Shown here: piece after piece, positions 4,509 to 59,487 of the stretch
How the letters are laid out: the number at the start of each line of letters is the position of its first letter
Numbering within the stretch: position 1 is the stretch's first letter
Assembly: GCF_004341235.1 (NCBI RefSeq)
Contig: NZ_SLUP01000002.1
Span: 558,001-622,000, forward strand
DNA length: 64,000 nucleotides
Source: Mariniflexile fucanivorans
GTDB lineage: Bacteria; Bacteroidota; Bacteroidia; Flavobacteriales; Flavobacteriaceae
Reading direction: 5' to 3'
The notes under the pieces: generated by a model
Told to the model about the DNA's origin: nothing
Databases searched by the model: none
Seen by the model: only the letters and a program-made list of their open reading frames with translations
Program-made: the position numbers and the translations under genes

Positions 4509-4581
4509 TATATAAACTCACGTTGTTTATTGGTAAATGGCAACTAACCTTAACGGAATAATTCCCACAGACCCTTCTAAA

Positions 4582-6081: not shown

Positions 6082-6124
6082 TTTTTATGTTTGACTGAAT
6101 CAGCCTAATTATTTATATTCTATA

Positions 6125-7171
6125 TTATTTCCAGCCTTCAATTTTTAAGAAAAAACCAGCAGTTGGATCATCATCATGACATGCCAAAAAAAGACATTCC
6201 GGTTCTCCGTTTTTCCATAAAATATTGGGTCTTTCAGTTCTTGCCAACTCCTTATTAAAATAATGAGTATTTGTATTATACCCAATTTCTGGTCTTCCCC
6301 AATCTATACCATCTTTAGATTTATAGATTAATCCTGGACGATTTCCACCAGGTTTTATTTTATCTTGAGGTGTTGGGTTGCCTTCCAAAGCGCTTTTTAC
6401 ATCCATACGATCCTCAACAATCATGTAATACATGCCTTTATAGTAAAACGCATAAGGGTCTTCAATATCCAATTTTTCATTCGCATAACTAATTAAGGGA
6501 TTGTTAGGATAATTTACATAAGGACCTTCTAGCTTATCACTTGTTGCCATAGAAATTTCTCTGTATTGTTTGGGCGCATATTTATCGGAAATTGACTTAT
6601 AATAGATTCTAAACCTACCATCAGTATCTACTACAAAAGTAGGATTGGAAGCGTGGATAATATTGGAGCCATCGGACTGTTTTCCAGAAGCTTTAAGAAT
6701 AGGATTAAAGGGGCTTTCCGTCCAAGGACCATATAGTGATTTTGAAGTAGCTATCCCTATTTCTTGATTGACTCTTGGCGTTGATGCATTCTTGAGCAAA
6801 TAAACAAGAACATAAGTATCTTTAACCTTCGATATTTGTGGGTTATGGTATGTTGCGGTTTTACTAGCAAACGTAGTATCTACAAAAGTATAGGGACCTT
6901 CTGGTTTATCGGCTGTAAAATGCACTATTTTGCTATTTTTTATCCAACTACCATTATTAGGTATGGTAGACATAAATATGTGTAATTTTCCATTTTCATC
7001 ATACATGGGTGCCATACACCAGTTCCACCAACCATCTTCTGCAGGCAAAATGTATTTACCAGCTACAAGCGATTTACTAAAAGAGGATTCTTTTATCGAT
7101 AAATTTTGCTTACAGGAAAGTACTATTAGTATAATGCAAACTACACATATTATTTTAATGGCGTATTTCAT
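6125..7171 (-). CDS. Five-bladed beta-propeller glycoside hydrolase-like lipoprotein (GH43/GH117-type fold)
   Basis: A 348-residue protein with a lipoprotein signal (IVLSC, Cys20). Propeller-type glycosidase motifs recur: GPY and GPW blade signatures (EGPYTF, YGPWTE, EGPYVN), HASNPTF, and DIEDPYAFYYKGMYY, where the Asp of EDP may be catalytic. This is the fold of families GH43, GH117 and relatives. The usual N-terminal GH43 base motif is replaced by GWWNWCMAP, so I do not assign a family or substrate. It lies between two sulfatases and was probably transcribed with them. It is preceded by a 185-bp gap that carries a LacI-type operator-like palindrome. In such loci, proteins of this shape commonly act on anhydro-, deoxy- or sulfated sugars, which is inference here. 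Confidence 0.7.
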   Translation of the reverse strand: MKYAIKIICVVCIILIVLSCKQNLSIKESSFSKSLVAGKYILPAEDGWWNWCMAPMYDENGKLHIFMSTIPNNGSWIKNSKIVHFTADKPEGPYTFVDTTFASKTATYHNPQISKVKDTYVLVYLLKNASTPRVNQEIGIATSKSLYGPWTESPFNPILKASGKQSDGSNIIHASNPTFVVDTDGRFRIYYKSISDKYAPKQYREISMATSDKLEGPYVNYPNNPLISYANEKLDIEDPYAFYYKGMYYMIVEDRMDVKSALEGNPTPQDKIKPGGNRPGLIYKSKDGIDWGRPEIGYNTNTHYFNKELARTERPNILWKNGEPECLFLACHDDDPTAGFFLKIEGWK

Positions 7172-7206
7172 TTTTCATGATTTTCTACAAAATTTCGAAA
7201 AAATCA

Positions 7207-7221
7207 TTGAAAACGCTTACT
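7207..7221. promoter_or_regulatory. LacI-family operator-like palindrome
   Basis: TTGAAAACGCTTACT matches the general LacI/cre-type pattern WTGNAANCGNWNNCW at every fixed position and is centred on CG. It lies 36-50 bp upstream of the propeller lipoprotein start at 7171, in a 185-bp gap. A related but one-base-shorter sequence, ATGTAACGTTTTCAT, is at 7328-7342. No LacI-type gene is in the window, so a regulator from elsewhere would be needed. A chance match in AT-rich DNA is possible. Confidence 0.35.
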
Positions 7222-7356
7222 CAAATCCACCAATATTTTGCTCAATTTCTTATAAATGACATAAAACACATTGATTTTTAATAATTTGGCAATATTTTAT
7301 AGAATTCGACCTATGTACTTTTGAAATATGTAACGTTTTCATTAATCGCTCCATGA

Positions 7357-9048
7357 TTATAATTTTGTGTCTTTATCTGTTATAGGGTTGTAAGAAGTAC
7401 CTGTGTGCCCACGTAATTTTTCAAATTGTATATATGAGTTTTCAACTTTTTTTGATAGTGTTTCCTCAAATTCCTTGCTGGTAACTTGGTACTGGGTTTG
7501 TAAAGCCAGTAATTTTTTGTGAAGCATTGTTTTAACTTCGGTATATTCTGAATTATCAATAACATTTTTAAGCTCTTGTGGATCTTTTTCTAAGTCATAA
7601 AGTTCCCATTCATCAATATCATCATACACATGAATGAGTTTATAACGTTTTGTTCTAACGCCATACATTTTTTTTACCATATGAAATGCTGGATAATCAT
7701 AATAATGATAATAAATAGCATCTCTAAAATCGTCTGAATTTTGTTTTTGTTCCAGTAAGGGTCTTAACGATTTACCTTGCATATCTTCAGGGATTTGAAC
7801 ATGTGCGTAATCTAAAAATGTTTCGGCAAAATCGATATTTTGGGTTAATGCATTAATAACAGTACCTTTTTTTATGCCGTTGGGATATTTCATTACAAGA
7901 GGCATGCTTAAAGATTCTTCATACATAAAGCGCTTATCAAACCAACCTTTCTCACCTAAATAAAAACCTTGATCGGTGGTATATATCACAATGGTATTTT
8001 CAGATAAACCATTGGCTTCCAAATAATCAAGAATTTTGCCAACACCCTCATCAACCGAAGCTATTGTTGCCAAATAATCTTGCAGATAACGTTGCCCTTT
8101 CCACTCTGCCAATGCTTTCCCTGAAAGATTTGCATCATGAAATGCATCATTTTTTGGTTGATATGCTTTATCCCAAATGGCACGTTGTTCTGCGGTCATT
8201 CTGTCAAAATCTGTAGTCCATGGGTTGTGCGCCAATTCATTACTACCTTTTTCCTTGGTCATTTTAAGGTCATGACCTTCATACATGTCTTGATAAATTG
8301 TTTGTAGTTGCTCTTTAGAGGCCGTTGAACCTTCATGAGAAGTGAAATAAGTATCAGGAAGCGGAAATTTAACAGCATCATACTTATTTAAATGTCTCAA
8401 TGCTGGCATCCAATTTCTGTGCGGCGCTTTATGATGTAGCATAAGCATAAAAGGTTGCTTACTGTTTTTTACGTTGTCTAGATATTTTATGGCATCATCT
8501 GTAATAATATCGGTGGCATACCCTTCTATTCTTGTGGTATCAATTTTCTGGGTTTTTTCATTTATGGCAATAAAATCTGGATTATAATAATTGCCTTGAT
8601 CGGTTAAAATATGCCAGTAATTGAACCCTTGCGGAAGTCCGTCCAAATGCCATTTACCAATCATTCCTGTGTTATAACCTGCTTTTTGGAGTAATTTTGG
8701 AAATGTTTGTTGATTCCCATCAAAGGTATCACCATTCATTCTAAATCCGTTAATATGGCTGAACTTACCCGTTAAAACCACAGCTCTACTAGGGCCGCAA
8801 ATAGAATTGGTGCAAAAATTATTTTTAAACAAAGCACCTTCTTTAGCTATTCTATCAATATTGGGGGTTGGAGCTAATTTACTAATTGGGTGTTCATAGG
8901 CACTAATGGCTTGAGTTGCATGATCATCTGCCATGATGTATATGATATTGGGTTGTTTTAACTGTGGAATTTCAGCTTTTTGTACTGGTTTTTGTCCACA
9001 AGATTGCAGTATAAGCGCCATACAAACTACATAAATTGATGTCCTCAT
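7357..9048 (-). CDS. Family S1 sulfatase lipoprotein
   Basis: A 563-residue sulfatase with a lipoprotein signal (ILQSC, Cys17). It shows QPNIIYIMADDHA at the N-terminal metal site, the formylglycine motif CGPSR with Cys84, GKWHLDG, and the C-terminal metal site IYTTDQGFYLGEKGWFDKRF. This last motif, together with the late LYDLEKDPQELKN segment, is typical of the S1 group containing iduronate- and N-acetylglucosamine-6-sulfatases. Subfamily and regiospecificity are not certain. It overlaps the upstream esterase by four bases, so translation is probably coupled. It differs clearly from the other sulfatase in this locus, so the two probably remove sulfates at different positions. The 185-bp gap after it contains a possible operator for the next gene. 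Confidence 0.92.
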   Translation of the reverse strand: MRTSIYVVCMALILQSCGQKPVQKAEIPQLKQPNIIYIMADDHATQAISAYEHPISKLAPTPNIDRIAKEGALFKNNFCTNSICGPSRAVVLTGKFSHINGFRMNGDTFDGNQQTFPKLLQKAGYNTGMIGKWHLDGLPQGFNYWHILTDQGNYYNPDFIAINEKTQKIDTTRIEGYATDIITDDAIKYLDNVKNSKQPFMLMLHHKAPHRNWMPALRHLNKYDAVKFPLPDTYFTSHEGSTASKEQLQTIYQDMYEGHDLKMTKEKGSNELAHNPWTTDFDRMTAEQRAIWDKAYQPKNDAFHDANLSGKALAEWKGQRYLQDYLATIASVDEGVGKILDYLEANGLSENTIVIYTTDQGFYLGEKGWFDKRFMYEESLSMPLVMKYPNGIKKGTVINALTQNIDFAETFLDYAHVQIPEDMQGKSLRPLLEQKQNSDDFRDAIYYHYYDYPAFHMVKKMYGVRTKRYKLIHVYDDIDEWELYDLEKDPQELKNVIDNSEYTEVKTMLHKKLLALQTQYQVTSKEFEETLSKKVENSYIQFEKLRGHTGTSYNPITDKDTKL

Positions 9049-9932
9049 AATGTTTTAGTTTTTATAATTTTAGTTTGTACAACCTCGCTATTTAAAACAG
9101 TTTTCTCAAAGAATTCAAAAATTTCATCAAGTTCATCCATTGGAATTTTTGCAACCTCATGCATACCTCCTTTTACAATCTTGAAATAATATGAAGTTTC
9201 AAATGCATCAAGTTTTTCTGCTATAATTTTAGATCCATCCAGCATGAGATATCCAGGTTTTTCAGGGTCGCATAAATGATGTGGCGCACTAGCAAAAGGG
9301 ACCAATTGATCTGCAGTGCCATGAAACAGAACACTAGGTAAAGCATTAGCTTTTGTTATATAACTGGCATTAACCACCGCCCCAGCAAATGACAATACGC
9401 CGGCAAATTTCACGTCTTCATACTTATTAAGATTATCAACAAAATAAGGTTTCATATAAACTGAATTTAAAATTCCTTCAGCACCTGCACTACTGCCACC
9501 AGCAATAATTTTTGTAGTATCAACGTTTAACATTTCAGCATTTTCAACAACAAAAGCAGCGGCATCCAAATAATCGATAGTGGCTTGTTTGAAAGTCTCA
9601 ATTTTATCTACTTTTGGACATAAGCAACTAAATTGGGTCTCGCTACCTGTTCGCAACAATCTATAAGAAACAGAAATACCTATATAACCAAATTTTGTAA
9701 CCGCTCCACAAAGTTGTGCATCGTCTACATAATCTCTTGAACCTATTGAAAACCCACCACCATGCATCCAAAGCAATGTTGGCAATTTAGTATTAACCTC
9801 AATGTTTTCGGGTCTATACACATCCAATTTTAAGGTGTCTTTTTCTTTTATGTTATAGGTATAAGTTGTTTTAGTTTGAGCCAGGAATGGCGATGCAAAG
9901 CTTAAAAAAATAATTACTACAATATATTTCAT
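9045..9932 (-). CDS. Secreted alpha/beta-hydrolase, carboxylesterase type
   Basis: A 295-residue protein with a signal peptide ending at SPFLAQ. The HGGG oxyanion motif (LWMHGGGFSIG, residues 55-64) and the nucleophile elbow GGSSAG (Ser148) mark the hormone-sensitive-lipase/carboxylesterase type. The likely acid is the Asp of FHGTADQLVPF and the likely base is the His of GGMHEV. It probably removes acyl groups such as acetate or feruloyl from a glycan, but the substrate is not shown. It is the first gene after a strong terminator and overlaps the following sulfatase by four bases, so it opens a second transcription unit of the PUL. The Cys-containing insertion FSCLCP at about residues 101-106 is unusual for this family. 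Confidence 0.8.
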   Translation of the reverse strand: MKYIVVIIFLSFASPFLAQTKTTYTYNIKEKDTLKLDVYRPENIEVNTKLPTLLWMHGGGFSIGSRDYVDDAQLCGAVTKFGYIGISVSYRLLRTGSETQFSCLCPKVDKIETFKQATIDYLDAAAFVVENAEMLNVDTTKIIAGGSSAGAEGILNSVYMKPYFVDNLNKYEDVKFAGVLSFAGAVVNASYITKANALPSVLFHGTADQLVPFASAPHHLCDPEKPGYLMLDGSKIIAEKLDAFETSYYFKIVKGGMHEVAKIPMDELDEIFEFFEKTVLNSEVVQTKIIKTKTL

Positions 9933-9948
9933 CTCATCTAGATTTTCT

Positions 9949-9985
9949 TAAAAAACCCACAAGATTTGAATAAACCTTGCAGGTT
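9949..9985 (-). terminator. Rho-independent terminator after the GH43 gene
   Basis: On the minus strand a 14-bp fully paired stem (arms 9972-9985 and 9954-9967, three G-U pairs, loop of four) is followed by six T. It lies 70 bp after the GH43 stop. A second 10-bp inverted repeat (10019-10028 with 10041-10050) precedes it. It splits the PUL into two transcription units. Confidence 0.75.
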
Positions 9986-10054
9986 AGTCGCTATTAGTCA
10001 CTTCAATAAAAAGTTTTTAATTTGAAATTGATGTATTACTATTTCAAATTTGAT

Positions 10055-11809
10055 TTATTCAGATTTTTTAATTTCAGAACGTTCACTCATTCCATTAGCA
10101 TTAAATGCTTCTATTTGAAAATAATAGGCATCAGCTCTATCTGCTCCAGTAAAAAAGTATTCATTTTTCCCATAAACCATGATGCTTCCGTAAAGTTTAT
10201 CAGGCGATTTTCCCCAGTAAATTACATAGCCATCTGCTAAGGGATTTTGTTGCCATTTAAACCAGATGCTTCTGCGTTCACCATATTTTTTTGGACTGGA
10301 CCGTAATACAATAAAATTTTCGACCTTTTCGGGTTTCTCACTGTGTCCTTTTCCAAAAACGCGAAAACCACTTAATGCAAATTTACCTGTGGGCATGTGT
10401 AGATTTTCCATTTTTAAAAATCGGAATTCGACAGGTGTTTCCAATTCTATATAATCGTGAGGAACATCGGTTTGGTTTTTGCTTTTATCAATAACCACTT
10501 GCCATTTCTTCCCATCATTGGAACCATATATTTTGTACTGATGAAATTTGCCCAACGTTTTTCCTAAAAACTCAACATCTTGATCGGCATAATTAATTTG
10601 AATGGCGTTAATAGTAGAAACTTGACCTAAATCGGTTTGAAACCATTCCCCTTTAGTCCCTGTTTTTGCACTCCAGTACGTTTTTATATCTTCATCTACC
10701 ACAAAATTAGGATGATAACCGCCTAAGGTTGAAGAAACTTGAACTGGTTTTTGATAATTTAAAAGCATCCAACCTGTAAACAAACCTTTAGAAAAATCTT
10801 TTTCTTTTGCAAATTCTGGTAGCAGCGTTGGATAATCGCCATAGGCTGTATTGCAATACATAACATCATCGGCATCAAAACCTGCTGGCCAAATACCTAA
10901 GCGTCGTTCAAAATTATTTTTTGTAGAAATAAAAATCGTTGATACATGCCAGTAGTTTTCGAAATTATCTTGAAATGTTGCCCCATGACCAGCACCGCGA
11001 GCAAAACCACCCGGTTTATATGAAAACGGATTATGCTGTTGGTATTCAAACCCATGTAAAGGGTCTTTGCTTACGTAAACACCATCGGCATAACCACTAA
11101 ACTCTGTTGCTGGCGCGCCGTATTGCATGTAATATTTATTGTTGTGTTTGGTCATCCACGCGCCTTCTATAAAGGGTTGTAAAAATACATTATCATTATA
11201 TTCACCAAAACGCTCCCACCCGTGATCTTCGGGAAATAATCTAACAATAGGCACAGTATAACCTTCCGACTGCATGGTTTTGGTATTAATTTCGGTACCT
11301 AAAAGCGGCCACACATTACTGGATCCCCAATAGAGATATAGCTTGTCTTTATCGTCATCATAATGAAATGCAGGATCCCAAGCCCCAACTTTAAGTGTAT
11401 CTACGGCTATTTCCCAATCATTAACCGTAGGATTTGTGCTTTTGTAAATAGGAAAATCTGATTTCCATGTAGAACCATATACGTATAGAGCATCTTTCAT
11501 AACAAACGCAGCAGGAGCATTCAAATCGTGCGTATAAGTATCATCACGAAGAAATTTTCTGTAAACGAAATTCCAATTTAGCATATTATCACTCCACCAA
11601 TACCCTTCTTGGTTTGTTGAAAAAAGAAAGTATTTATTTCTAAAATTTACAATAACAGGATCTGCCGTAGCACGATGCTTTCCTTGAGTTGAAAAACGTT
11701 CAAAGGGTGTATATCCATAATCGACATTAATGGGATTGCAATAGGTTTTTTGCTGAGCAATAACCATTTGAAATGAACATAAAATTAATATGACAACTAT
11801 TTTTTTCAA
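10055..11809 (-). CDS. GH43-family glycosidase with F5/8C (CBM32-like) and fibronectin III domains
   Basis: A 584-residue secreted protein with a signal peptide ending MVIAQ. The propeller domain spans roughly residues 20-330 and has all three acidic positions of GH43: Asp in RATADPVIV (base), Asp in GAWDPAF (pKa modulator) and Glu in FIEGAW (acid). A discoidin-like F5/8C domain follows (about 350-480, WFQTDLGQV to FRVFGKG), probably carbohydrate-binding. A fibronectin III-like domain ends the protein. GH43 enzymes remove arabinofuranose, xylose or galactose from side chains; the subfamily is not assignable by eye. It is the last gene before the terminator and starts 10 bp after GH3, so it belongs to the SusCD operon. 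Its activity is not expected for a plain beta-1,2-glucan, so the real target may be a decorated polymer. Confidence 0.85.
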   Translation of the reverse strand: MKKIVVILILCSFQMVIAQQKTYCNPINVDYGYTPFERFSTQGKHRATADPVIVNFRNKYFLFSTNQEGYWWSDNMLNWNFVYRKFLRDDTYTHDLNAPAAFVMKDALYVYGSTWKSDFPIYKSTNPTVNDWEIAVDTLKVGAWDPAFHYDDDKDKLYLYWGSSNVWPLLGTEINTKTMQSEGYTVPIVRLFPEDHGWERFGEYNDNVFLQPFIEGAWMTKHNNKYYMQYGAPATEFSGYADGVYVSKDPLHGFEYQQHNPFSYKPGGFARGAGHGATFQDNFENYWHVSTIFISTKNNFERRLGIWPAGFDADDVMYCNTAYGDYPTLLPEFAKEKDFSKGLFTGWMLLNYQKPVQVSSTLGGYHPNFVVDEDIKTYWSAKTGTKGEWFQTDLGQVSTINAIQINYADQDVEFLGKTLGKFHQYKIYGSNDGKKWQVVIDKSKNQTDVPHDYIELETPVEFRFLKMENLHMPTGKFALSGFRVFGKGHSEKPEKVENFIVLRSSPKKYGERRSIWFKWQQNPLADGYVIYWGKSPDKLYGSIMVYGKNEYFFTGADRADAYYFQIEAFNANGMSERSEIKKSE

Positions 11810-49426: not shown

Positions 49427-50629
49427 TTAAACAGAACCTTTTTGAAGAAGCGCCGGAATGGTTCTTAAAATGAGTTTAATATCGTACCAAAACGAGAAAT
49501 TATCTCCTTTAAAATGCTCTGCATATTCACTATCTAGTCGCATTCTTTCTTCTTCAGACATTTTTCCGCCTTTACCTCGTAGCTCCACTTGCCATAAACC
49601 TGTGATTCCTGGAGGTGCTAAAAAACGTTTTGATAAGGCATCGGCTGTAAGCATTTCGGCCTCATACACTGGCAACGGTCTGTTGCCAACAATGGACATA
49701 TCGCCTTTAATCACATTTATTAACTGCGGTAATTCATCAATACTTGTGTTTCTTATAAATTTCCCAACTTTGGTAACTCTTGGATCATCCACAATTTTTA
49801 CAAATGTTGAATTGTTTTTCGCAGCTTCTATTTTTTGAACATTAAACCAATAATCGCATATTTGGTGCGTATCTATGTACATTAATGGCGAGCAAGTTTC
49901 ACCTTCTGGCAACTTACTACATCTTGGACAAGGAATACCTAACGGATTATCTTGAGTTTTTGTTTCCTCTTTTTTGTACTGATTTTTTTCTAAAGCTAAT
50001 TTTTTTAGAAGTTCATCCGATCCCGTACGCATGGATCTTAACTTGTAAAAATCGAACGTTTTTCTTCCTACACGTTTAGATATGTAATACACTTTTCCTT
50101 TAGATTCTAAACGGATGGCAAGAATGATAAGCAATAAAAAAGGAGATGCGACTAGAAGTACTGAAGATGCAACGGCTATATCAAAAAAACGTTTTGATAT
50201 AGGCATTTTATAAACTTCTTCATTTAATACTGGTTCTTTTTTAGTACTTGTTGGTAATTTATAGTTACAAAGAAATTCTATTCTACTTATAATATCTTTT
50301 GCATTTGTTACAGAAGCTACATAAAAATCGTCAATATGTTTTTTGAAGGCTTGCTTATAAACTTCTACATTAAATTCTTTAGATAACAATACAAACGGAA
50401 TCACATCAAATTCATGATGTGTTCTTAACCAATCATAAAAAAATATGCCATTATTACCCGGTAAATTATAATCGCATATAATAGCATCGGGCTTTGGGTT
50501 CGATTTTAAATAATTGGTTGCTTTAGCACTATTTTGAATTGGTGTGATTGACCAATTTTTTTTATCCTCTTCTATGTTAAAGTAATCTTCTGTACTACCA
50601 ATATATAAGATGTTAAGATTTGGGCTCAT
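49427..50629 (-). CDS. Initiating sugar-phosphate transferase fused to receiver-like domain and Cys insertion
   Basis: A 400-residue fusion. Residues 1-120 resemble a response-regulator receiver with Asp53 in AIICDYNLPGN, but the usual N-terminal acidic pair and the later Lys are absent, so phosphorylation is uncertain. From about residue 144 it is a monotopic phosphoglycosyl transferase of the WcaJ/PglC type: one hydrophobic helix (about 150-172), RVGRKTFDFYKLRSM, the catalytic Asp298-Glu299 in SIDELPQL, and GDMSIVGNRPLP. An insertion holds Cys234, Cys237, Cys246 and Cys258, which could bind zinc. The enzyme loads the first sugar phosphate onto undecaprenyl phosphate. It is 31 bp after a CheY-like gene. 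Confidence 0.85.
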   Translation of the reverse strand: MSPNLNILYIGSTEDYFNIEEDKKNWSITPIQNSAKATNYLKSNPKPDAIICDYNLPGNNGIFFYDWLRTHHEFDVIPFVLLSKEFNVEVYKQAFKKHIDDFYVASVTNAKDIISRIEFLCNYKLPTSTKKEPVLNEEVYKMPISKRFFDIAVASSVLLVASPFLLLIILAIRLESKGKVYYISKRVGRKTFDFYKLRSMRTGSDELLKKLALEKNQYKKEETKTQDNPLGIPCPRCSKLPEGETCSPLMYIDTHQICDYWFNVQKIEAAKNNSTFVKIVDDPRVTKVGKFIRNTSIDELPQLINVIKGDMSIVGNRPLPVYEAEMLTADALSKRFLAPPGITGLWQVELRGKGGKMSEEERMRLDSEYAEHFKGDNFSFWYDIKLILRTIPALLQKGSV

Positions 50630-51589: not shown

Positions 51590-52933
51590 TTATACAAGCA
51601 CTCCTTTATTTTCGTTGGTATTAACTCCTATACAGTAATATTCAAAACCTTCTTTTTTCATTTCTTCTCTATCATAAATATTTCGACCATCAAAAATGGT
51701 TGGTTTATTTAATAATTTAGTCATGATTTTAAAGCTCGGGATTTTAAACTCTGGCCATTCTGTAAGTATAGCCAAACAATCTGCATCAATTAAAGCTTCA
51801 TATTGATCTTCAAAATAAGATATAGTATCTCCAAAATGGTGTTTAGCCTCAGGGATTGCAACAGGATCGTAAGCCTTAACAACGGCGCCAGCTTCCAGTA
51901 AGTTGTTAATAATACTTAAGGACGGAGCTTCACGCATATCATCTGTTTGAGGTTTAAATGAAAGCCCCCAAACACCAATGGTTTTGCCTTTTAAATCGCC
52001 ATCAAAATAATTATTGATTTTGTTGAATAACACTAATTTTTGTAGTTTGTTAACTGCCTCAACAGCTTGAAGCACCTTTAAATCGTAATTATTTTCGCTA
52101 GCTGTTCTTATTAAAGCTTGAACATCTTTAGGAAAGCATGAACCACCATAACCAATTCCTGGGTATATAAATTTGGTACCAATTCTAGAATCAGATCCTA
52201 TGCCCTTTCTTACTTTGTTAATATCGGCTCCAACAATTTCGCATAAGTTTGCGATGTCGTTTATAAAACTAATTTTTGTAGCCAACATAGCATTAGCTGC
52301 ATATTTTGTCATTTCAGCAGAAACAATATCCATAAAAATAACGGGGTGCCCGTTTAATGTGAAAGGTTTGTATAAACTTTTCATTAAATCTTCGGCTCTT
52401 TGGCTATCTAGCCCTACAACAATTCTATCTGGTTTTAAAAAGTCGTTAATAGCAGCTCCTTCCTTTAAAAATTCAGGATTTGAAGCTACATCAAATTCTA
52501 TATTAGCATTTCGTTTGTCTAATTCTTCTTGAACCGCCTGCTTCACTTTTTTTGATGTTCCTACAGGCACCGTACTTTTAGTTACAATAAGCATATAATC
52601 GTTCATGTGCTTACCACAATCTCTTGCCACGGCAACAACGTATTTAAGGTCTGCACTACCATCTTCATCTGGCGGTGTTCCTACAGAAATAAACAATACT
52701 TCGGCATCTTTTAAAGCTTCCTTAATATTGGTTGTAAAACTTAATCGACCTTTATCCATATTCCTGGTAATCATATTTTCTAAACCAGGCTCATAGATAG
52801 GAATAATTCCATTGTTAAGGTTATCAATTTTCTTCTTATCAATATCAACACAGGTGACATTAATACCCACTTCGGAAAAACATGCGCCCGTAACTAGGCC
52901 TACATATCCACTTCCAACAATTACGATTTTCAT
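51590..52933 (-). CDS. ugd: UDP-glucose/GDP-mannose 6-dehydrogenase family enzyme
   Basis: A 447-residue NAD-dependent sugar-nucleotide dehydrogenase. The Rossmann motif [16 protein letters not shown] occupies residues 6-21, STVPVGTSK and NPEFLKEG follow, and the catalytic Cys266 is in YGGSCFPKD. The C-terminal UDP-binding domain contains [17 protein letters not shown]. Length and motifs fit UDP-glucose 6-dehydrogenase, which supplies UDP-glucuronate for EPS; GDP-mannose dehydrogenase cannot be excluded. It is a separate unit upstream of the EPS operon, with a hairpin after it. A glucuronic acid-containing polymer is therefore likely. Confidence 0.93.
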
Positions 52934-53198: not shown

Positions 53199-53912
53199 CT
53201 ATAATAAATTAAGACGCTTCATTAATTCAGGTCTATTTGAGCGACTTACCGGAACTATATCTTTTTTAACAAGCACACTATTATCTTTAATATCAATAAT
53301 TTTTTTAATATTGATTATATAGGAACGATGCACTTTTAAAAATAGACTCTCTGGTAATTTATCTTCAATTTTTTTTAGTGTAGAATGAACTGTGTAATTT
53401 TTTTCTTCGGTTTTAACTAAAATATAATCGCCTTTGGCCTCCACCAAACAGATACTTGGAATATCAATTTTTATTAATCTTCTATCAATATTTATATACA
53501 AATCATTTCCTGATGCAGAAACATCTTTATCATCTGTAATAGTGTCTGGAACATTTTTAATATCTATTTTTTCAGCTTTTTGAATTGCTTTTTCAAAACG
53601 TGGCAATGAAATGGGTTTCACTAAATAATCTATAATACAATCGTACTCATAGGCTTCAATGGCTAACTTAGAATCTGAAGTTATTAGAATAATTTTTGGA
53701 GGATTTTTTAAAGTTTGAATAAAATCGAAACCATTAAAATCTGGCATGTGAATGTCTAAGAAGATTAAATCGACATCGTTTTGGTTTAAAAATTTTATAG
53801 CCTGAATTGCATTGGGAAATTCTTCAAGAACTTGAAGTCCTTTTATAGTTGAACACAATTGAAAAATTATAGCTCTGGCTGTAGCCTCATCATCAATAAT
53901 AATACAATTCAT
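53199..53912 (-). CDS. LytTR-family response regulator
   Basis: A 237-residue response regulator. The receiver domain (residues 1-120) has the acidic pair at residues 7-9, phosphoacceptor Asp53 in IFLDIHMPD, the Thr/Ser of ILITSD and Lys in DYLVKPI. The LytTR DNA-binding domain follows (about 138-235), recognisable by IDIPSICLVEAKGDYILVKT and SLFLKVHRSYIINIKKI. It is the output of the phosphorelay operon and is the last gene, ten bases after the Hpt gene. LytTR proteins bind two short direct repeats one or two helical turns apart; two 16-bp repeats 21 bp apart lie upstream of this operon, so autoregulation is likely. Confidence 0.95.
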   Translation of the reverse strand: MNCIIIDDEATARAIIFQLCSTIKGLQVLEEFPNAIQAIKFLNQNDVDLIFLDIHMPDFNGFDFIQTLKNPPKIILITSDSKLAIEAYEYDCIIDYLVKPISLPRFEKAIQKAEKIDIKNVPDTITDDKDVSASGNDLYINIDRRLIKIDIPSICLVEAKGDYILVKTEEKNYTVHSTLKKIEDKLPESLFLKVHRSYIINIKKIIDIKDNSVLVKKDIVPVSRSNRPELMKRLNLL

Positions 53913-53921
53913 ATATACTAA

Positions 53922-54239
53922 TTATACTGTAGATAAATAATTAGTTATGTTATTTAATATAGATTCGAATTCTTCACTAAGGTCTGTATTACCTTCCAAT
54001 AAATTATTTTCAAATACAACTGCAACAGCATAACTTTTTTCAAGCCCTAAAATACTAATTTTATGTTTAAGTTTGTGCACATTTTCTGAAGCTAGTTTAA
54101 AATTGTTCGATTTTAAATTTTGGTAGTATACTTCTTTTTCTGCTGGGAACTCTAATTTAATAATTGATAGCAGTTTATCTTCAAATGATTTTTCACCATT
54201 AGAGAATTGTTTTATATAATTTAAGTTTGGTTTTTCCAT
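53922..54239 (-). CDS. Hpt phosphotransfer domain protein
   Basis: A 105-residue stand-alone histidine phosphotransfer protein. The signature VHKLKHKISILGL, with His55 as the phosphoacceptor, matches the H-x-L-K-x5-LG pattern of Hpt domains. It carries no other domain. It lies between a histidine kinase and the LytTR regulator with gaps of two and nine bases. It probably relays phosphate from the receiver RR or kinases of the same operon to the LytTR regulator. Hpt proteins are small and easy to overlook, but the codon frame, the motif and its place make this secure. Confidence 0.9.
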   Translation of the reverse strand: MEKPNLNYIKQFSNGEKSFEDKLLSIIKLEFPAEKEVYYQNLKSNNFKLASENVHKLKHKISILGLEKSYAVAVVFENNLLEGNTDLSEEFESILNNITNYLSTV

Positions 54240-54241
54240 CG

Positions 54242-55291
54242 TTATTTTTTTATTGTAAAATAAAATACAGTTCCTTTTCCAATTTCAGATTCTAACCAAA
54301 TTTTTCCTTCAAAGGCTGATACAATTTTTTTTGCAATAGACAATCCTATCCCTGTAGCATTGGAGTTGTTTTCTAGTTTTTGAAATGGTTTGAATATTTT
54401 ATCAAAATAAGCTTTTTCAATACCTATACCATTATCTTTTACATAAAATTTCCAATGAGTTGGTTGTTCTAAAAATCCAATTTCTAGTAAACCCTGTTCT
54501 TTATTATTGTATTTAATTGCATTATCTATTAAGTTTTGAAACAATTGTTTAACCCTAAATTTATCGCCCTTTATTATTGGCAGACTGGAAGGGAGATTAA
54601 CTTTGATGTGCTCGGGTATTTTAACAGAAATTAATATGTCATTAATAATTTCATTTAAATCTAAATCGTATGTTGTAGTTTGGTTTTTATTGATTGTTGA
54701 ATAATTTAAAATGCCACTAATTAAATTATCCATTTTTTCAACATTACCTCTTATTAAATTTAAACTTTCAGACACATTGCCTTTTTGGTTTCCTGCAGCG
54801 TCTTCTTTTAACCAAGCAGATAAGGCATCTATAGTTCGTAGTGGTGATTTTAAGTCGTGAGATACTAAATAGGCATAATCGCTCAATTCTTCGTTTTGCG
54901 TTTCCAATTCAATCATAAGCTGTTCTCTTTGCTTATTCATCTCGATGAGTTCTTCTGTTTGTTTATCAATAAATTCTGATAATTTAACACCATCTAAATC
55001 TTTTGGACTTATTTTTTTACTTCCAGATTCATCTTGAACTCTTATACTTTCTATTAATTTATTTAATTTGTCTATTAGGTTTCTTTGTACAAGTGTTTCT
55101 TGCCTTAATTTTTCATTAGATTCAGATAACTCATCTGAATTAACAGAGATTGCTCTCTGTTGCATTTTATATTGTTCATCAAAATTATCGTAAGCTCTAT
55201 TAACGGCATCAATAAATGCCATCAAATCTTTCTCTGAGTTTGTTCCATTGCTCAAATATTTACTAATTTGATGTTTTAATAATGAGTTCAT
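54242..55291 (-). CDS. Sensor histidine kinase without membrane segment (partner of FIST protein)
   Basis: A 349-residue cytoplasmic histidine kinase. The first 130 residues are a coiled coil without a membrane segment. The dimerisation box has His145 in YLVSHDLKSPL. The ATPase domain follows with N (LFQNLIDNAIKY), G1 (VKDNGIGIE) and G2 (GIGLSIAKKI) boxes. Its start overlaps the FIST gene by one base, and such an arrangement is common for kinases that receive a signal from a FIST protein. Its kinase core is close to that of the PAS kinase in the same operon (HDLKSPL and WLKED motifs shared), so the two appear to be paralogues. It probably phosphorylates the Hpt or a receiver. Confidence 0.92.
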   Translation of the reverse strand: MNSLLKHQISKYLSNGTNSEKDLMAFIDAVNRAYDNFDEQYKMQQRAISVNSDELSESNEKLRQETLVQRNLIDKLNKLIESIRVQDESGSKKISPKDLDGVKLSEFIDKQTEELIEMNKQREQLMIELETQNEELSDYAYLVSHDLKSPLRTIDALSAWLKEDAAGNQKGNVSESLNLIRGNVEKMDNLISGILNYSTINKNQTTTYDLDLNEIINDILISVKIPEHIKVNLPSSLPIIKGDKFRVKQLFQNLIDNAIKYNNKEQGLLEIGFLEQPTHWKFYVKDNGIGIEKAYFDKIFKPFQKLENNSNATGIGLSIAKKIVSAFEGKIWLESEIGKGTVFYFTIKK

Positions 55292-56424
55292 TATTCACTT
55301 ATTAGGGTTACTGCCATGGTTTGATTATGTAACTGACACATATTTTCTTCATGATATGGTGCAATTTCTCCATATGAATAAAATCCACACATGGTAATTC
55401 CGTTTGGCAAAACTTTTTTAGCTTCTTCAACTTCTTCTATAGTGCGTTGGTCTAATATAAGTTTTCTGCCTATACAACTTACTAATAAAGCAAGTTGTGG
55501 TTTACTAACCATTTGATCTAAAGCTTGTTTGGTTGCTGTTTCTGATGCTCTTACTAAACTATCTACATTGGTCATCATGAGTTGTGCTTTTGAATTTAGA
55601 GGTATATCACCTGCAAGTATCATAGCATTGTACTCATCATTAATATTTAAGATGGTTCTTATTTTGGATTGTTCTTCTTTTTCAGATTTAATTTGGAGTG
55701 GATAATATAAAGCCACTCCTGGCAATTCTGATGATTTATCGCCTAAATAGCGTTTGTACAAATCTAAAGCTGGTTTGTTATCTAGCTCATACAAAAAATT
55801 TGATTTAGATTTTGTTACAATACGTTCTGGACCAAATGCTGTCCATCCGCCATCTACAGATGATGTCACCTCAAAAGAATCACCATAAAATCCTATAGCA
55901 ACTATTTCTCCATCTTTAGGGTTTTCGTTGTATGAAACTAATGTTCTTTCAAACCTGTTATCATCTGCGCTTAAACCTCCTGTAATTAACACATTACTAT
56001 CAACAGTATCATTCATTCCATTTGCCAACTCACTACCATTAACAAAACTACCGTTTGATAAAACTAAAATATATTTTAAATCCTTTCCTTTTAATTTCTT
56101 AACTAGATTAGATCCTGCTTTAAAGCTATCTAAATTTGTATCAGAAAGATTTATTTTTTCTACTTTGAATGTACTACGCTCAAATTCAATTGCTGTAATA
56201 GAGATGCAATTGTTCTCTACGGAATTACCTATTACGTTTCCTCCTGTTGAAGCAAATACAATATGTCCTTTAGGAAATATTTTTTTTATATCTTTATAGA
56301 TGTTTACATCTTCTAAAAAAAATCGATCTCCAAAAACCAAAACTAAGGGAGCATTTAATTTTTTTTCAGGAGTTAAATACTTCCAATCTTTATCTTTAAA
56401 TTTTATTAATTGTACCGTGTTCAT
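55291..56424 (-). CDS. FIST signal-transduction protein (possible NosP-type sensor)
   Basis: A 377-residue protein with FIST_N and FIST_C domains. Recognisable motifs are LVFGDRFF, FASTGGNVIG, LITGGLSADD and the C-terminal GFYSYGEIAPY, which is typical of FIST_C. FIST domains bind small ligands. One subgroup, NosP, binds haem and senses nitric oxide, and is usually encoded beside a histidine kinase. Haem binding cannot be read off this sequence. The gene starts five bases after the PAS kinase stop and overlaps the next kinase by one base. In the same operon an H-NOX sensor is encoded, which makes the NosP reading attractive; amino-acid sensing is an alternative. Confidence 0.88.
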   Translation of the reverse strand: MNTVQLIKFKDKDWKYLTPEKKLNAPLVLVFGDRFFLEDVNIYKDIKKIFPKGHIVFASTGGNVIGNSVENNCISITAIEFERSTFKVEKINLSDTNLDSFKAGSNLVKKLKGKDLKYILVLSNGSFVNGSELANGMNDTVDSNVLITGGLSADDNRFERTLVSYNENPKDGEIVAIGFYGDSFEVTSSVDGGWTAFGPERIVTKSKSNFLYELDNKPALDLYKRYLGDKSSELPGVALYYPLQIKSEKEEQSKIRTILNINDEYNAMILAGDIPLNSKAQLMMTNVDSLVRASETATKQALDQMVSKPQLALLVSCIGRKLILDQRTIEEVEEAKKVLPNGITMCGFYSYGEIAPYHEENMCQLHNQTMAVTLISE

Positions 56425-56428
56425 CCAT

Positions 56429-58405
56429 CTATTTTTTTAAGGTGAAAAAAAATGTTGTTCCTATACCTGGCTCACTTTCTAGCCAAATTTTTCCTTGATG
56501 TAATTCAACTATTTTTTGAACTATGGATAAGCCAATACCCGATGAATCTTTACTTTTTTTAAGTGAATGAAATACTTTAAATATTTTATCGTGGAACTGC
56601 TTTTCTATTCCCATACCGTTATCATGCACTGAGAATTGATAATATTCACCTTGATCTTCTGCCGCAATATTTATGATGCCTTTTTCTTTATCGATAAACT
56701 TAACAGAATTGCTTATCAAATTTTGGAACAACTGCTGCAACTTTGTTTTATGGCCAAAAATGATAGGTAGTGTACTAGCAATTTCTACGGAAATATGCTC
56801 TGGTATATATAATACTTTAACTAAATCAATAAGTAAATCGTTTGTATGAATTTCAATTTTTTCGCCATCATCTGAACCTACACTAGAATAATCTAAAATA
56901 TCGGTTATTAATTGATCCATTTTTTCTAAAGTCTTTTCAATCAAATCAATAGTTTGAATGCTTACGCCATCCAATTTGCTCGCATTATCTTCTTTAAGCC
57001 AACTAAATAAGGCATTAATACTGCGTAAAGGTGATTTTAAATCGTGCGACACAATATGGGCATATTCTTGTAAATCGTTATTGCTTTTTTCTAATTCCTT
57101 TAAAAGACTTTCTTTTTGAATTTCAAGGTTTTTAAATTCTGTAATATCTAAATTTACACCAATGGAGCCAATAATTTTTCCTTCCAAATCATAATTTGGC
57201 GCGCCACTAATAAGCCAATGTCTTAATTCTCCTTTTTTATTATTTATTCTTAATTCATACGAATCTGTTCTGCCTTTTTTACGATTTTTAGCTTGCTCCG
57301 CCATAAGTTCCCTATCATCATTAATAGGTAGCAATTCTTTACCCTTTACACCAATAAGTTCTTTTTCAGAATAACCCGTCATGGCAGCAAAACTTTTATT
57401 TACCATCAAAATTTTGTCGTCAAGATCTAGTTCTAAAAGTCCTAAATTTATGTTAGAAATAATATTATAATATTTCTGTTTTTCGGCTTTTAAAGTTCTT
57501 TCATAAGATATGTTGGTTGTAATATCTTTAAACGTCCATAAAAACCCTTTAGATTGTTGATCTATAACAATTGGCATATAGTTTCTTTCTAAAACTTTTC
57601 CATCAATCATTTCTAGTTCATCGGCTAGAACCGTTTGCTTTTTATGCTCTATTTCCCTCATTCTAGATAAAAAAGCATCTGGGTTTTTAAATAAAACGCT
57701 GTTTTGCTCTGAGGCCTCTTTACAATCCATTCCAATCAATTCTGTTGGAGACGCATCAATATTAAAAAGCTCGGTAAATTTTTTATTCGTAAGTATAATT
57801 TTTCGATTTTCGTCTTCAAGAACCACACCACTATCTAGATTAAGAATTAAGGTAGCTAATCTATTTTCAGACTCTATTAGCTTTTCTTCCGCTTCTTTAT
57901 TTTTGGTAATATCTCTTATAATGCCCTGTGCTGCTACAGCAATTCCATTATCGTAGATAATACTGGCATTTATATGAATTAGTTTTTCAATATTATCATT
58001 GGTTGTGATTTTTATTTCAAAATTGGTTAATACCCCATCATTTAATAATTCCTTAAAAGAATTTGCCACTCTTTCATAATCATTAGGGCTAACCATTTTC
58101 ATTAGGTTAAAATCTACCTTATCGTTTTCAAAACCAAACAATCTTAACGCAGCATCGTTCATTTTTAAAATATTACCAAATAAATCCATAATTAAATAGG
58201 CGTCAACTATATTTTCAAAAACGCCTTGTAATTGAGAGTCTTTTTTGGTAAGCAGCATTTCGAGTTCTGAATACGATTTTTCAAGCCTTTGATTTGTTTC
58301 GTATAATTGAGCCGCTTTTTGCTCTAGAATGGATTCTGCCTGCTTTCTAGCCGCTTTTTCGCGGTCAAGTGCCCGTTGCAATATGTCAATTTTTTCTTGA
58401 CTCAT
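56429..58405 (-). CDS. Multi-PAS sensor histidine kinase (partner of H-NOX)
   Basis: A 658-residue kinase without a membrane segment. An N-terminal coiled coil (1-55) is followed by three PAS domains: about 58-165, 180-300 and 310-425 (LGLLELDLDDKILMVNKSF, AMTGYSEKELIG). The kinase core has His454 in IVSHDLKSPL, then N (LFQNLISNSVKF), G1 (VHDNGMGIE) and G2 (GIGLSIVQKI) boxes. Its ATG overlaps the H-NOX stop (TAATG), which is the usual arrangement for H-NOX with its kinase. NO bound to H-NOX would control its activity. It is a paralogue, in the catalytic half, of the shorter kinase downstream. Confidence 0.93.
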   Translation of the reverse strand: MSQEKIDILQRALDREKAARKQAESILEQKAAQLYETNQRLEKSYSELEMLLTKKDSQLQGVFENIVDAYLIMDLFGNILKMNDAALRLFGFENDKVDFNLMKMVSPNDYERVANSFKELLNDGVLTNFEIKITTNDNIEKLIHINASIIYDNGIAVAAQGIIRDITKNKEAEEKLIESENRLATLILNLDSGVVLEDENRKIILTNKKFTELFNIDASPTELIGMDCKEASEQNSVLFKNPDAFLSRMREIEHKKQTVLADELEMIDGKVLERNYMPIVIDQQSKGFLWTFKDITTNISYERTLKAEKQKYYNIISNINLGLLELDLDDKILMVNKSFAAMTGYSEKELIGVKGKELLPINDDRELMAEQAKNRKKGRTDSYELRINNKKGELRHWLISGAPNYDLEGKIIGSIGVNLDITEFKNLEIQKESLLKELEKSNNDLQEYAHIVSHDLKSPLRSINALFSWLKEDNASKLDGVSIQTIDLIEKTLEKMDQLITDILDYSSVGSDDGEKIEIHTNDLLIDLVKVLYIPEHISVEIASTLPIIFGHKTKLQQLFQNLISNSVKFIDKEKGIINIAAEDQGEYYQFSVHDNGMGIEKQFHDKIFKVFHSLKKSKDSSGIGLSIVQKIVELHQGKIWLESEPGIGTTFFFTLKK

Positions 58406-58944
58406 TAATTTTTGGTAATTATAAACTTAACTTCTGTTCCGTCTTTTTTTAGTTTTTCAAGTAGAATAGTTGCGGTAGCATTAAAGTGTTCAAAGGTTTT
58501 ATTCATTAAACCAAGTCCGAAATGATGCATCGCCCTACTTGATTTATAAATTAAAGTTATTGAATTTTTACTTTTCTCAACTACTTCAAAGGTTGGCAAT
58601 TCTGCGTCTGGATAAATTTTTCTAACCTCAACATGAATATGATTCTCTATGGAAGACAGCATTTCTATAGGGTCTGTATAAGTTACAAATAGCCCTGGAT
58701 AGCTTTTTTTTAAAACACTAAAAAAATGTTCGGCGTAAACTAATAATAAATCATCTATTGAAATTCCTGTATTTTCACTTAAGTGTTGAAGCAATTGAAG
58801 CATTTCTGAAAATTCATACGTTCCTACTGCCGTATAAGCACCATTTGATTCTAGATTTGATTGATTGATAATTTTATCAACCATTTCCAAACCAAATTTA
58901 GCTTCAACTAAATCTAAAAACTCAGTAAAAACAATACCTTTCAT
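58405..58944 (-). CDS. H-NOX haem nitric oxide/oxygen-binding sensor protein
   Basis: A 179-residue stand-alone H-NOX (HNOB) domain. The proximal haem ligand His102 lies in the family's ENHIHVEVRKIYPDAELP segment and the porphyrin-binding YxSxR motif is YKSSR at residues 133-137. The length is normal for bacterial H-NOX. Near residues 138-142 (AMHHF) there is no tyrosine at the position that hydrogen-bonds oxygen in the anaerobe-type proteins, so a nitric oxide-selective sensor is expected. It overlaps the preceding response-regulator gene by one base and the following kinase gene by a TAATG. It probably inhibits or alters the PAS kinase on NO binding. Confidence 0.94.
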   Translation of the reverse strand: MKGIVFTEFLDLVEAKFGLEMVDKIINQSNLESNGAYTAVGTYEFSEMLQLLQHLSENTGISIDDLLLVYAEHFFSVLKKSYPGLFVTYTDPIEMLSSIENHIHVEVRKIYPDAELPTFEVVEKSKNSITLIYKSSRAMHHFGLGLMNKTFEHFNATATILLEKLKKDGTEVKFIITKN

Positions 58945-59357
58945 TATATTTTTTTTAGTTCATTTATGCTCCAGTATGCTAAAAGTTTTTCAATTTTAGA
59001 AACATACTCTTCATATTTAAGTGGTTTCAATACATAACCCGCTATGCCAATTTTATAACATTCTAATAAATCTTTTTGATTACTAGATGTTGTTAAAATA
59101 ATAGTAGGTATATATTTTAAAACCTCATCTTTTTTAAGGATACTTAAAAATTCAATGCCATTTATTTTTGGCATGTTTAAATCTAATAAAATAATGTCAG
59201 GTAAGTCTTCTTTTTTTTCTAAAATTTTTAAAGCATCTTCTCCATTGTTTGCTTCAATAATTTTATGATTGAGTTTAAGTGACGAAACTGTTCTGTTTAG
59301 TTTCATTATTTCAATCATATCATCTTCAATAAGTAGTATCTTAAGAATATTTGTCAT
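58944..59357 (-). CDS. CheY-like single-domain response regulator
   Basis: A 137-residue receiver domain, first gene of the signalling operon. Acidic pair at residues 11-13 (IEDDM), phosphoacceptor Asp59 in IILLDLNMP, Thr-rich IILTTSS, and Lys in YVLKPLKYEE, so phosphorylation is expected. No DNA-binding domain. The stop overlaps the H-NOX start by one base. It probably receives phosphate from one of the two kinases and may act as a phosphate sink or a protein-binding switch; it cannot itself bind DNA. The ATG at 59357 is preceded by a TATATTTG element 24 bp upstream. Confidence 0.92.
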   Translation of the reverse strand: MTNILKILLIEDDMIEIMKLNRTVSSLKLNHKIIEANNGEDALKILEKKEDLPDIILLDLNMPKINGIEFLSILKKDEVLKYIPTIILTTSSNQKDLLECYKIGIAGYVLKPLKYEEYVSKIEKLLAYWSINELKKI

Positions 59358-59430: not shown

Positions 59431-59487
59431 CATTAAGTATCGATGAATGGTAGAAAAGTATAGACGAATGGCATTATATACTTAATG
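59431..59487. promoter_or_regulatory. LytTR-like direct repeats inside an inverted repeat
   Basis: AAGTATCGATGAATGG (59435-59450) and AAGTATAGACGAATGG (59456-59471) are 14/16 identical and exactly 21 bp apart, two helical turns. They are enclosed by a perfect 10-bp inverted repeat (CATTAAGTAT at 59431-59440, ATACTTAATG at 59478-59487). They lie 43-90 bp upstream of the -7 element of an operon that ends with a LytTR regulator. Confidence 0.55.

Follow-up and report, generated by a model that had tools for sequence, protein, structure and literature searches.

A conserved H-NOX–FIST operon of Flavobacteriaceae with a predicted two-input phosphorelay

Introduction

A run of seven genes in Mariniflexile fucanivorans (Flavobacteriaceae) contains two candidate sensor genes, one for an H-NOX protein and one for a FIST protein, each directly before a histidine kinase gene of its own. 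It lies at positions 53,199–59,357 of the 64,000-nucleotide stretch analyzed here, which we call the window (contig NZ_SLUP01000002.1 of assembly GCF_004341235.1, positions 558,001–622,000 of the forward strand). The locus raises the question whether both sensors report nitric oxide (NO) to a single output, as a sequence-only reading of the window had proposed. We found that the operon is a conserved two-input variant of H-NOX signaling with a predicted regulon, and that it is apparently specific to the family. On balance, we favor a phosphorelay in which H-NOX with its PAS kinase (PASHK) and FIST with a second kinase (HK2) would both feed a single receiver (RR1), from which phosphate would reach a histidine phosphotransfer protein (Hpt) and then a LytTR regulator acting at promoters with a tandem repeat. 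The H-NOX and NosP pathways described in the articles consulted are mostly proteobacterial and end in cyclic di-GMP (c-di-GMP) or quorum sensing (PMC12570481, PMC8738867, PMC6769237; for all articles cited by PMC number, our statements refer to the accessible part of the text). Here a large family, many of whose named members are marine, keeps an H-NOX operon that apparently has its own relay, with a second sensor that can be swapped and a regulon that can be predicted, and the role of NO in Bacteroidota thereby becomes testable.

Gene order and conservation of the operon

All seven genes are on the minus strand. In order of reading they encode the single-domain receiver RR1 (58944..59357; Pfam Response_reg), H-NOX (58405..58944), PASHK (56429..58405), the FIST protein with its N and C domains (55291..56424), HK2, which has no PAS domain (54242..55291), Hpt (53922..54239) and the LytTR response regulator as output (53199..53912; Pfam Response_reg and LytTR). 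The successive intergenic gaps are −1, −1, 4, −1, 2 and 9 bp, and a single transcript is therefore likely. The sequence-only reading had described the same seven touching or overlapping genes in the same order, and Pfam agrees.

Conservation of the gene order had been named beforehand as one point on which that reading could fail, and here it held. We examined the best 80 of 314 confirmed loci, i.e. the nearest relatives (the named loci, cited by L numbers; genomes are cited by G numbers), and 51 of them keep all seven genes in order. Another 25 have RR1–H-NOX–PASHK–Hpt–LytTR and lack FIST and HK2, and the remaining four are partial (L044, L058, L069 and L070). Across the 76 complete loci, FIST and HK2 are either both present or both absent. 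In a tree of RR1, H-NOX and LytTR, the presence of FIST needs at least 13 changes (15 with three states); strongly supported branches force 3 of the 13, and many branches are weak, the tree having been built by a quick method. The FIST–HK2 pair may have been gained or lost.

Among 397 genomes of the family, H-NOX was found in 146 (149 places) and FIST_C in 114. Both occur in 91 genomes, in 12 of which they are not near each other, and 23 genomes have FIST without H-NOX. FIST lies within 15 kb of 79 of the 149 H-NOX places, on the same strand in all 79 and downstream at 1.9–3.3 kb in 78; this count leaves out one H-NOX row below the cut-off and FIST rows that were below 65 bits or unlisted. The 79 neighboring pairs and 51 full operons rule out that the combined operon is a one-off. 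Of 295 genomes sampled across the class, 26 outside the family have both domains, in no case within 15 kb of each other, although pairs may have been missed where assemblies are fragmented; the two genomes with such a close pair are both inside the family. The combination of both sensors in one operon, which had been called unusual, is thus unusual outside the family and common within it.

An independent-looking pairing of H-NOX and FIST occurs in L158 (G253:C16:863000-880000, 4156-10887). There, the H-NOX belongs to a different subfamily and the order is FIST, H-NOX and a hybrid kinase with HNOBA, PAS, HisKA, REC and weak Hpt matches; a sigma-54-type regulator is present and an exopolysaccharide (EPS) cluster with ugd adjoins.

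A tandem repeat upstream of the operon

Upstream of RR1 is a tandem direct repeat, CCATTCGTCTATACTT-N5-CCATTCATCGATACTT (59433..59475, minus strand), whose copies in the window have 0 mismatches. It scores 46.9 with a position weight matrix (PWM), and the next non-overlapping site in the 64 kb scores below −8. This is the single place in the whole genome that matches at up to 3 mismatches, and the reversed pattern has no match in that genome. When the regions upstream of RR1 were compared in the 80 named loci and the window, 80 of the 81 had at least one copy at up to 3 mismatches and 35 had two; L058 had none at that threshold. Under a looser criterion (at least 11 of 16 letters), a partner copy is found exactly 21 bp away, downstream in 65 and upstream in 7 of the 81 regions. 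With a PWM trained on half of the named loci, 39 of the 40 held-out regions outscored every one of 2000 mononucleotide shuffles.

A canonical LytTR site is a direct repeat of 9 bp whose copies are 10–13 bp apart (PMC11347149), and the 21-bp period falls within the 19–22 bp expected of such repeats. Because the period fits this published spacing, the tandem repeat is probably a LytTR binding site, as far as can be predicted from its pattern. We also scanned the 79 genomes with FIST near H-NOX together with G323, and 38 of these 80 carry a total of 43 repeat sites, of which 33 (from 32 genomes) are upstream of H-NOX.

The H-NOX protein

The H-NOX of the window matches the Pfam HNOB domain at 137.7 bits (cut-off 25.5) and matches PDB entries 6bdd and 6bde over its full length (E = 5e-94 and 2e-93). 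6BDD is the H-NOX of Kordia algicida (PMC7356049); both entries bear the molecule name of an aldolase, evidently a mislabeling. K. algicida OT-1 (L103) itself carries all seven operon genes, so that a crystallized H-NOX and the operon are available in the same organism.

His102 had been noted beside the YxSxR motif. In our alignment it is H104 that coincides with the histidine of two other H-NOX structures, 4u99 from Shewanella (position 103) and 6ocv (position 104), and H102 aligns to a non-histidine residue in both. Both histidines are conserved in the flavobacterial H-NOX set, and the proximal heme histidine is most likely H104. Other features fared better: the YxSxR motif is present as Y133, S135 and R137, kept in at least 97% of 81 H-NOX rows, a level that no cysteine reaches. 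The sequence-only reading had also pointed to the absence of an oxygen-stabilizing tyrosine. A molecular dynamics study contrasts the K. algicida protein with Tyr140 of the Cs protein (PMC7356049), and we found no tyrosine in residues 134–150 of the window H-NOX, as read off directly and not from an alignment to the O2-binding Cs protein. Together with the HNOB domain, H104 and YxSxR, this supports NO as the likely ligand, which we also consider the best guess.

The FIST protein and its signal

The FIST protein matches FIST at 141.4 bits and FIST_C at 112 bits (Pfam). Its AlphaFold2 model (predicted local distance difference test, pLDDT, 90.9) has human FBXO22 as the nearest solved fold; the predicted structure confirms the FIST fold and bears nothing on a heme pocket. 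A profile search against PDB sequences gave a single doubtful match. Against the NCBIfam NosP equivalog model, the protein scored 53.2 bits with a cut-off of 450, and other FISTs of the operon scored 30.9 (L036), 48.2 (L103) and 63.8 bits (L033); the detached FIST of L141 reached 55.7 bits. Legionella and Azospirillum plasmid FISTs (36–40% identity) stand in other gene contexts and score 75 and 55 bits with the NosP model. Within the alignment of 53 FIST rows, C317 is present in 52, the remaining row being truncated with a gap there, and H366 and C363 are present in 48; no histidine is kept over all 53. In four of the 80 loci (L036, L050, L057 and L081), a divergent FIST (50–54 bits, 23% identity to that of the window) fills the slot before HK2, with a tyrosine at position 366. 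Given the NosP scores far below the cut-off, the fold nearest FBXO22 and this pattern of residue conservation, we regard FIST as a putative second sensor whose signal is uncertain.

One candidate is a signal other than NO, such as a thiol-reactive compound, redox state or metabolite, sensed through the invariant Cys317, which would make the operon an integrator of two signals. The near-complete conservation of this cysteine and the exchange of FIST subfamilies in the same slot are consistent with this, as is the similarity to FBXO22, whose FIST-domain Cys326 reacts with aldehydes (PMC13316043). The parallel was drawn without mapping Cys317 onto Cys326, however, and a human protein reacting with synthetic ligands is a weak analogy. 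We consider sensing through Cys317 a serious possibility, if somewhat short of an even chance.

The sequence-only reading instead linked FIST to the NosP group of heme NO sensors, in which case one gas would be read by two receptors, each perhaps serving its own range of NO concentration. The NosP group consists of FIST proteins, and a kinase is frequently encoded alongside (PMC12570481). In 79 genomes of the family FIST is a neighbor of H-NOX, and H366 and C363 are widely kept. Two NosP traits are indeed found here, FIST and FIST_C domains and an adjoining kinase without a sensory domain (HK2 has HisKA and HATPase_c alone above the cut-off). By contrast, the curated model places this FIST and the three other operon FISTs far outside the NosP family, and the candidate histidine is replaced by tyrosine in the four divergent proteins. 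The assignment to NosP-type sensors was therefore not borne out, and a NosP-like FIST seems doubtful to us; of the two sensor families said to be tied to NO, H-NOX is well supported and FIST is not. Separately, runs of three or four neighboring FIST genes occur without an H-NOX match in G261:C7, G101:C1, G069:C15 and G225:C68.

Two related kinases and the predicted relay

By Pfam, PASHK consists of three PAS stretches followed by HisKA/HATPase_c and HK2 of HisKA/HATPase_c, and neither has a receiver domain. A nearly identical catalytic core (SHDLKSPL, WLKED) had been noted for the two kinases, and their cores are 49% identical over 221 aa, with 51–53% identity over 66–69 aa in the phospho-acceptor region. 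They are each other's best match, at 222 bits compared with at most 112 for any other of 30 kinase loci in the genome (from 34 HisKA matches; loci are stretches, so that a long kinase may be truncated). When a tree was built of cores from the window, every third named locus and 16 other kinases of the genome, PASHK and HK2 formed a clade apart from the 16 (support 93), with 96 for the HK2 and 82 for the PASHK branch; the method was quick and several branches are long. The two kinases look like products of one old duplication, with which these sequence comparisons fit. PASHK varies from 397 to 826 aa among the named loci, mostly by increments close to the size of a PAS domain, and a form of ~400 aa is present in 11 of the 80. 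The distances between H-NOX and FIST are mostly near 1.93, 2.31, 2.70 and 3.08 kb, in steps of ~385 bp that fit gain or loss of whole PAS domains in the kinase, in agreement with the kinase lengths.

A separate receiver, an Hpt and a DNA-binding receiver are all present with conserved phospho-sites. At least 97% of 81 RR1 rows conserve E11, D12, D59, T90 and K111, and in LytTR the same holds for D7, D8, D53, T78 and K99 (78 rows). Convergence of duplicated sensor–kinase modules on one Hpt and one DNA-binding output had been proposed. The kinases are related, each has its own sensor gene and there is one DNA-binding output, but direct transfer from both kinases to Hpt was rejected, as it would run from histidine to histidine and neither kinase has a receiver. 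No relay is known in which a kinase histidine passes phosphate to an Hpt histidine. A receiver is thus needed in between, for which the operon offers RR1 and, apart from it, LytTR alone; RR1 is the natural intermediate in view of its conserved phospho-residues. Where FIST–HK2 is missing, Hpt and LytTR still accompany the H-NOX kinase, so they are not private to HK2. From the kinship of the kinases and the gene order we infer that both use RR1, and phosphate probably passes from kinase to RR1, Hpt and LytTR in that order.

In the mechanism that we propose, H-NOX would bind NO and modulate the adjoining PAS kinase, and FIST would modulate HK2 on a second signal. Both kinases would phosphorylate the single, Spo0F-like receiver RR1, from which phosphate would pass to His55 of Hpt and on to Asp53 of LytTR. 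Phosphorylated LytTR would then bind the tandem repeats of 21-bp period and control its own operon; in relatives, it may also control a type IX-secreted DUF6923 protein and a receiver–glycosyltransferase (REC-GT2), and thereby adhesion or extracellular matrix. The FIST–HK2 pair would be an optional plug-in. Gene order, the presence or absence of this cassette, kinase kinship, phospho-residue conservation and the conservation and distribution of the site were computed; each phosphotransfer step, the ligands, the sign of regulation and LytTR as the protein at the tandem site are predictions. We consider this two-input relay the probable arrangement, with moderate confidence.

Several observations weigh against it. 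The Pfam match of Hpt (20.1 bits) is under the cut-off of 24.6. We nevertheless accept its identity because an AlphaFold2 model from 48 sequences is a helical bundle (pLDDT 92.8), its nearest solved folds are HPT domains (Foldseek; best E 0.039, none at 0.001; TM 0.78/0.73) and His55 is invariant in the 48 rows. Kinship is uncorrected in both Fisher tests, by which co-presence of H-NOX and FIST in family genomes exceeds chance (odds ratio 16, p ~1e-29) and the repeat is commoner in H-NOX-system than in H-NOX-less genomes (38/80 vs 3/80, p ~7e-11). The strict repeat pattern recovers only 32 of 80 operons, and the operon itself is the sole predicted target in the window genome. That genome alone among three of its genus has the full gene set; G323 has the operon without FIST–HK2 and a weak best site upstream of RR1 (PWM 11.9), and G134 has no H-NOX. 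In G002 and G320, FIST–HK2 is away from H-NOX with no Hpt–LytTR match beside the pair, so a shared relay would have to act in trans; the remaining H-NOX operon of G002 retains Hpt and LytTR, and neither was seen near the H-NOX of G320. A PASHK-like kinase, FIST and HK2 stand in a row in G050 (L144, G050:C1:89000-105000, 5711-9512), on a different contig from H-NOX, again lacking an Hpt–LytTR match beside them, and G160 (L014) and G253 have other arrangements. The two domains are also apart in seven further genomes, where a more distant FIST is beside a different, longer kinase.

The displaced pairs of G002 and G320 would suit two separate pathways with the promoter alone in common, in which one kinase acts on RR1 only and Hpt–LytTR is fed by the other or by a hybrid kinase encoded elsewhere. 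Single receivers can work alone. However, RR1, Hpt and LytTR remain with H-NOX–PASHK in the 25 loci without FIST–HK2, and the two kinases share their phospho-acceptor region, so that we find separate pathways improbable. That the repeat is a general flavobacterial LytTR site, or that of another regulator, is very improbable: its binding by the operon LytTR is a prediction, other LytTR proteins exist (e.g. L159, 13162-13869) and three of 80 random H-NOX-less family genomes have a site, each at 3 mismatches, but this compares with 38 of 80 H-NOX-system genomes, and the whole genome of the window has one such site.

Comparison with known systems

Several kinases feed a single receiver in the Spo0F–Spo0B–Spo0A relay, from which phosphate passes through a phosphotransferase to a DNA-binding regulator. 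The relay favored here follows the same plan and differs in its Hpt-type phosphotransferase, its LytTR output and its kinases beside separate sensor proteins. In the H-NOX/kinase system of Shewanella, a stand-alone H-NOX governs a cytosolic kinase. In Vibrio harveyi a stand-alone H-NOX governs HqsK, which relays to the Hpt LuxU (PMC6769237). The operon resembles H-NOX/HqsK–LuxU in the stand-alone H-NOX with a cytosolic kinase and the relay through an Hpt; unlike the hybrid HqsK, its kinases lack a receiver, with RR1 encoded as a protein of its own, and the output is LytTR.

In NosP systems (NosP/NosK/NosR and V. cholerae NosP–VpsS–LuxU), FIST is beside a kinase without its own sensory domain (PMC12570481, PMC6769237), as it is here. 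The differences are the low score of the operon FIST with the NosP model and the output, since NosR is an HD-GYP regulator and the operon has Hpt and LytTR. FIST genes near hnox are already known from one H-NOX group: in the neighborhood network of group 1, whose threshold is presence no more than five genes away in 20% or more of the genomes, they are included (PMC8738867). The accessible text of that article gives no operon order, cassette, relay, targets or group taxa, and that of PMC7356049 does not mention the operon context of the K. algicida protein, an end-to-end homolog of the window H-NOX. Among the matches listed in a search of open PMC titles and abstract openings, none describes the operon, which does not show that it is unpublished. 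New here is the repeat with 21-bp period ahead of the operon in nearly all relatives and also before DUF6923 and REC-GT2 genes.

Predicted targets and the neighboring EPS cluster

Ten of the 43 repeat sites are outside the operon. Three are 52–85 bp before REC-GT2 genes (G348, G374 and G338). Two precede genes for DUF6923 proteins that end in a type IX sorting tail, one in G346 and one in G265, where the gene comes directly after LytTR, and two precede a second RR1–LytTR pair (G172 and G347). Large secreted-looking proteins follow at 95 bp in G143 (lectin-type domain) and at 316 bp in G213 (sub-threshold sorting tail), and the site in G075 has no gene close by on its strand. In L165 and L166, the second RR1–LytTR pair has the same tandem site ahead and no H-NOX or FIST match beside it.

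With a threshold of E = 1e-120, REC-GT2 was detected in 29 of 40 genomes that have H-NOX and in 1 of 80 that lack it (top candidates per genome scored). In 28 of the 29 (the exception is G196), it is on the H-NOX contig, ~8–32 kb away, and shared synteny may therefore explain part of the co-occurrence. At 18 of 30 REC-GT2 loci, the upstream site scored above the shuffled maximum; three of these 18 are from the genomes that led to this target. At least 97% of 31 REC-GT2 rows keep the receiver residues D7, D8, D51, S80 and K102. DUF6923 relatives are present in 63 of the 80 named loci, and of the 62 that follow LytTR downstream, 54 have a site no more than 400 bp away. A PWM scan of the 80 loci (1.57 Mb) gave 201 matches above 10 and none in reversed sequence; overlapping matches count separately, and RR1 sites trained the matrix. 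Of these, 97 were before RR1, 62 before DUF6923 genes, 16 before other open reading frames, 2 before ugd-like genes and 1 before RR8; the other 23 lacked a gene within 350 bp.

None of the seven operon proteins has a c-di-GMP enzyme domain above the Pfam cut-off. Tentatively, a family-specific relay may join NO, through H-NOX, with a different chemical signal, through FIST, in one self-reinforcing LytTR regulon that controls a type IX-secreted surface protein and REC-GT2, itself maybe phosphorylated by the same Hpt. This would connect gas signaling to surface or matrix without c-di-GMP; we hold this wider reading to be possible rather than probable.

Neither target was found in the window genome, where REC-GT2 was searched for at 1e-60 and DUF6923 at 1e-20. 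An EPS cluster lies 265 bp beyond the operon, opening with a UDP-glucose dehydrogenase-like (ugd-like) gene (51590..52933, minus strand; named from its own sequence, no family search). It was considered as a target of the same site and rejected, as no LytTR-type tandem site is present there in the 64-kb window. Four of the 80 named loci (L046, L048, L052 and L094) have parts of a similar cluster no more than 10 kb from the operon. A site precedes a Wzc-like gene in both L094 and L046; L094 also has one 51 bp before ugd and L046 a weak one before RR8. The scan gave a weak site 742 bp before ugd in L048 and, in L052, no site above 10 besides the operon's own. The NO-controlled polysaccharide switch suggested earlier thus finds no support in the site-less EPS operon of the window and gains some indirectly from the sites that relatives have before REC-GT2 and, in two of the 80 loci, before EPS-cluster genes. 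A polysaccharide link of the NO operon is plausible across the family and unproven for the window genome. Within the EPS cluster of the window, positions 49427-50629 encode a weak receiver fused to a bacterial sugar transferase, which echoes the REC-GT2 of relatives.

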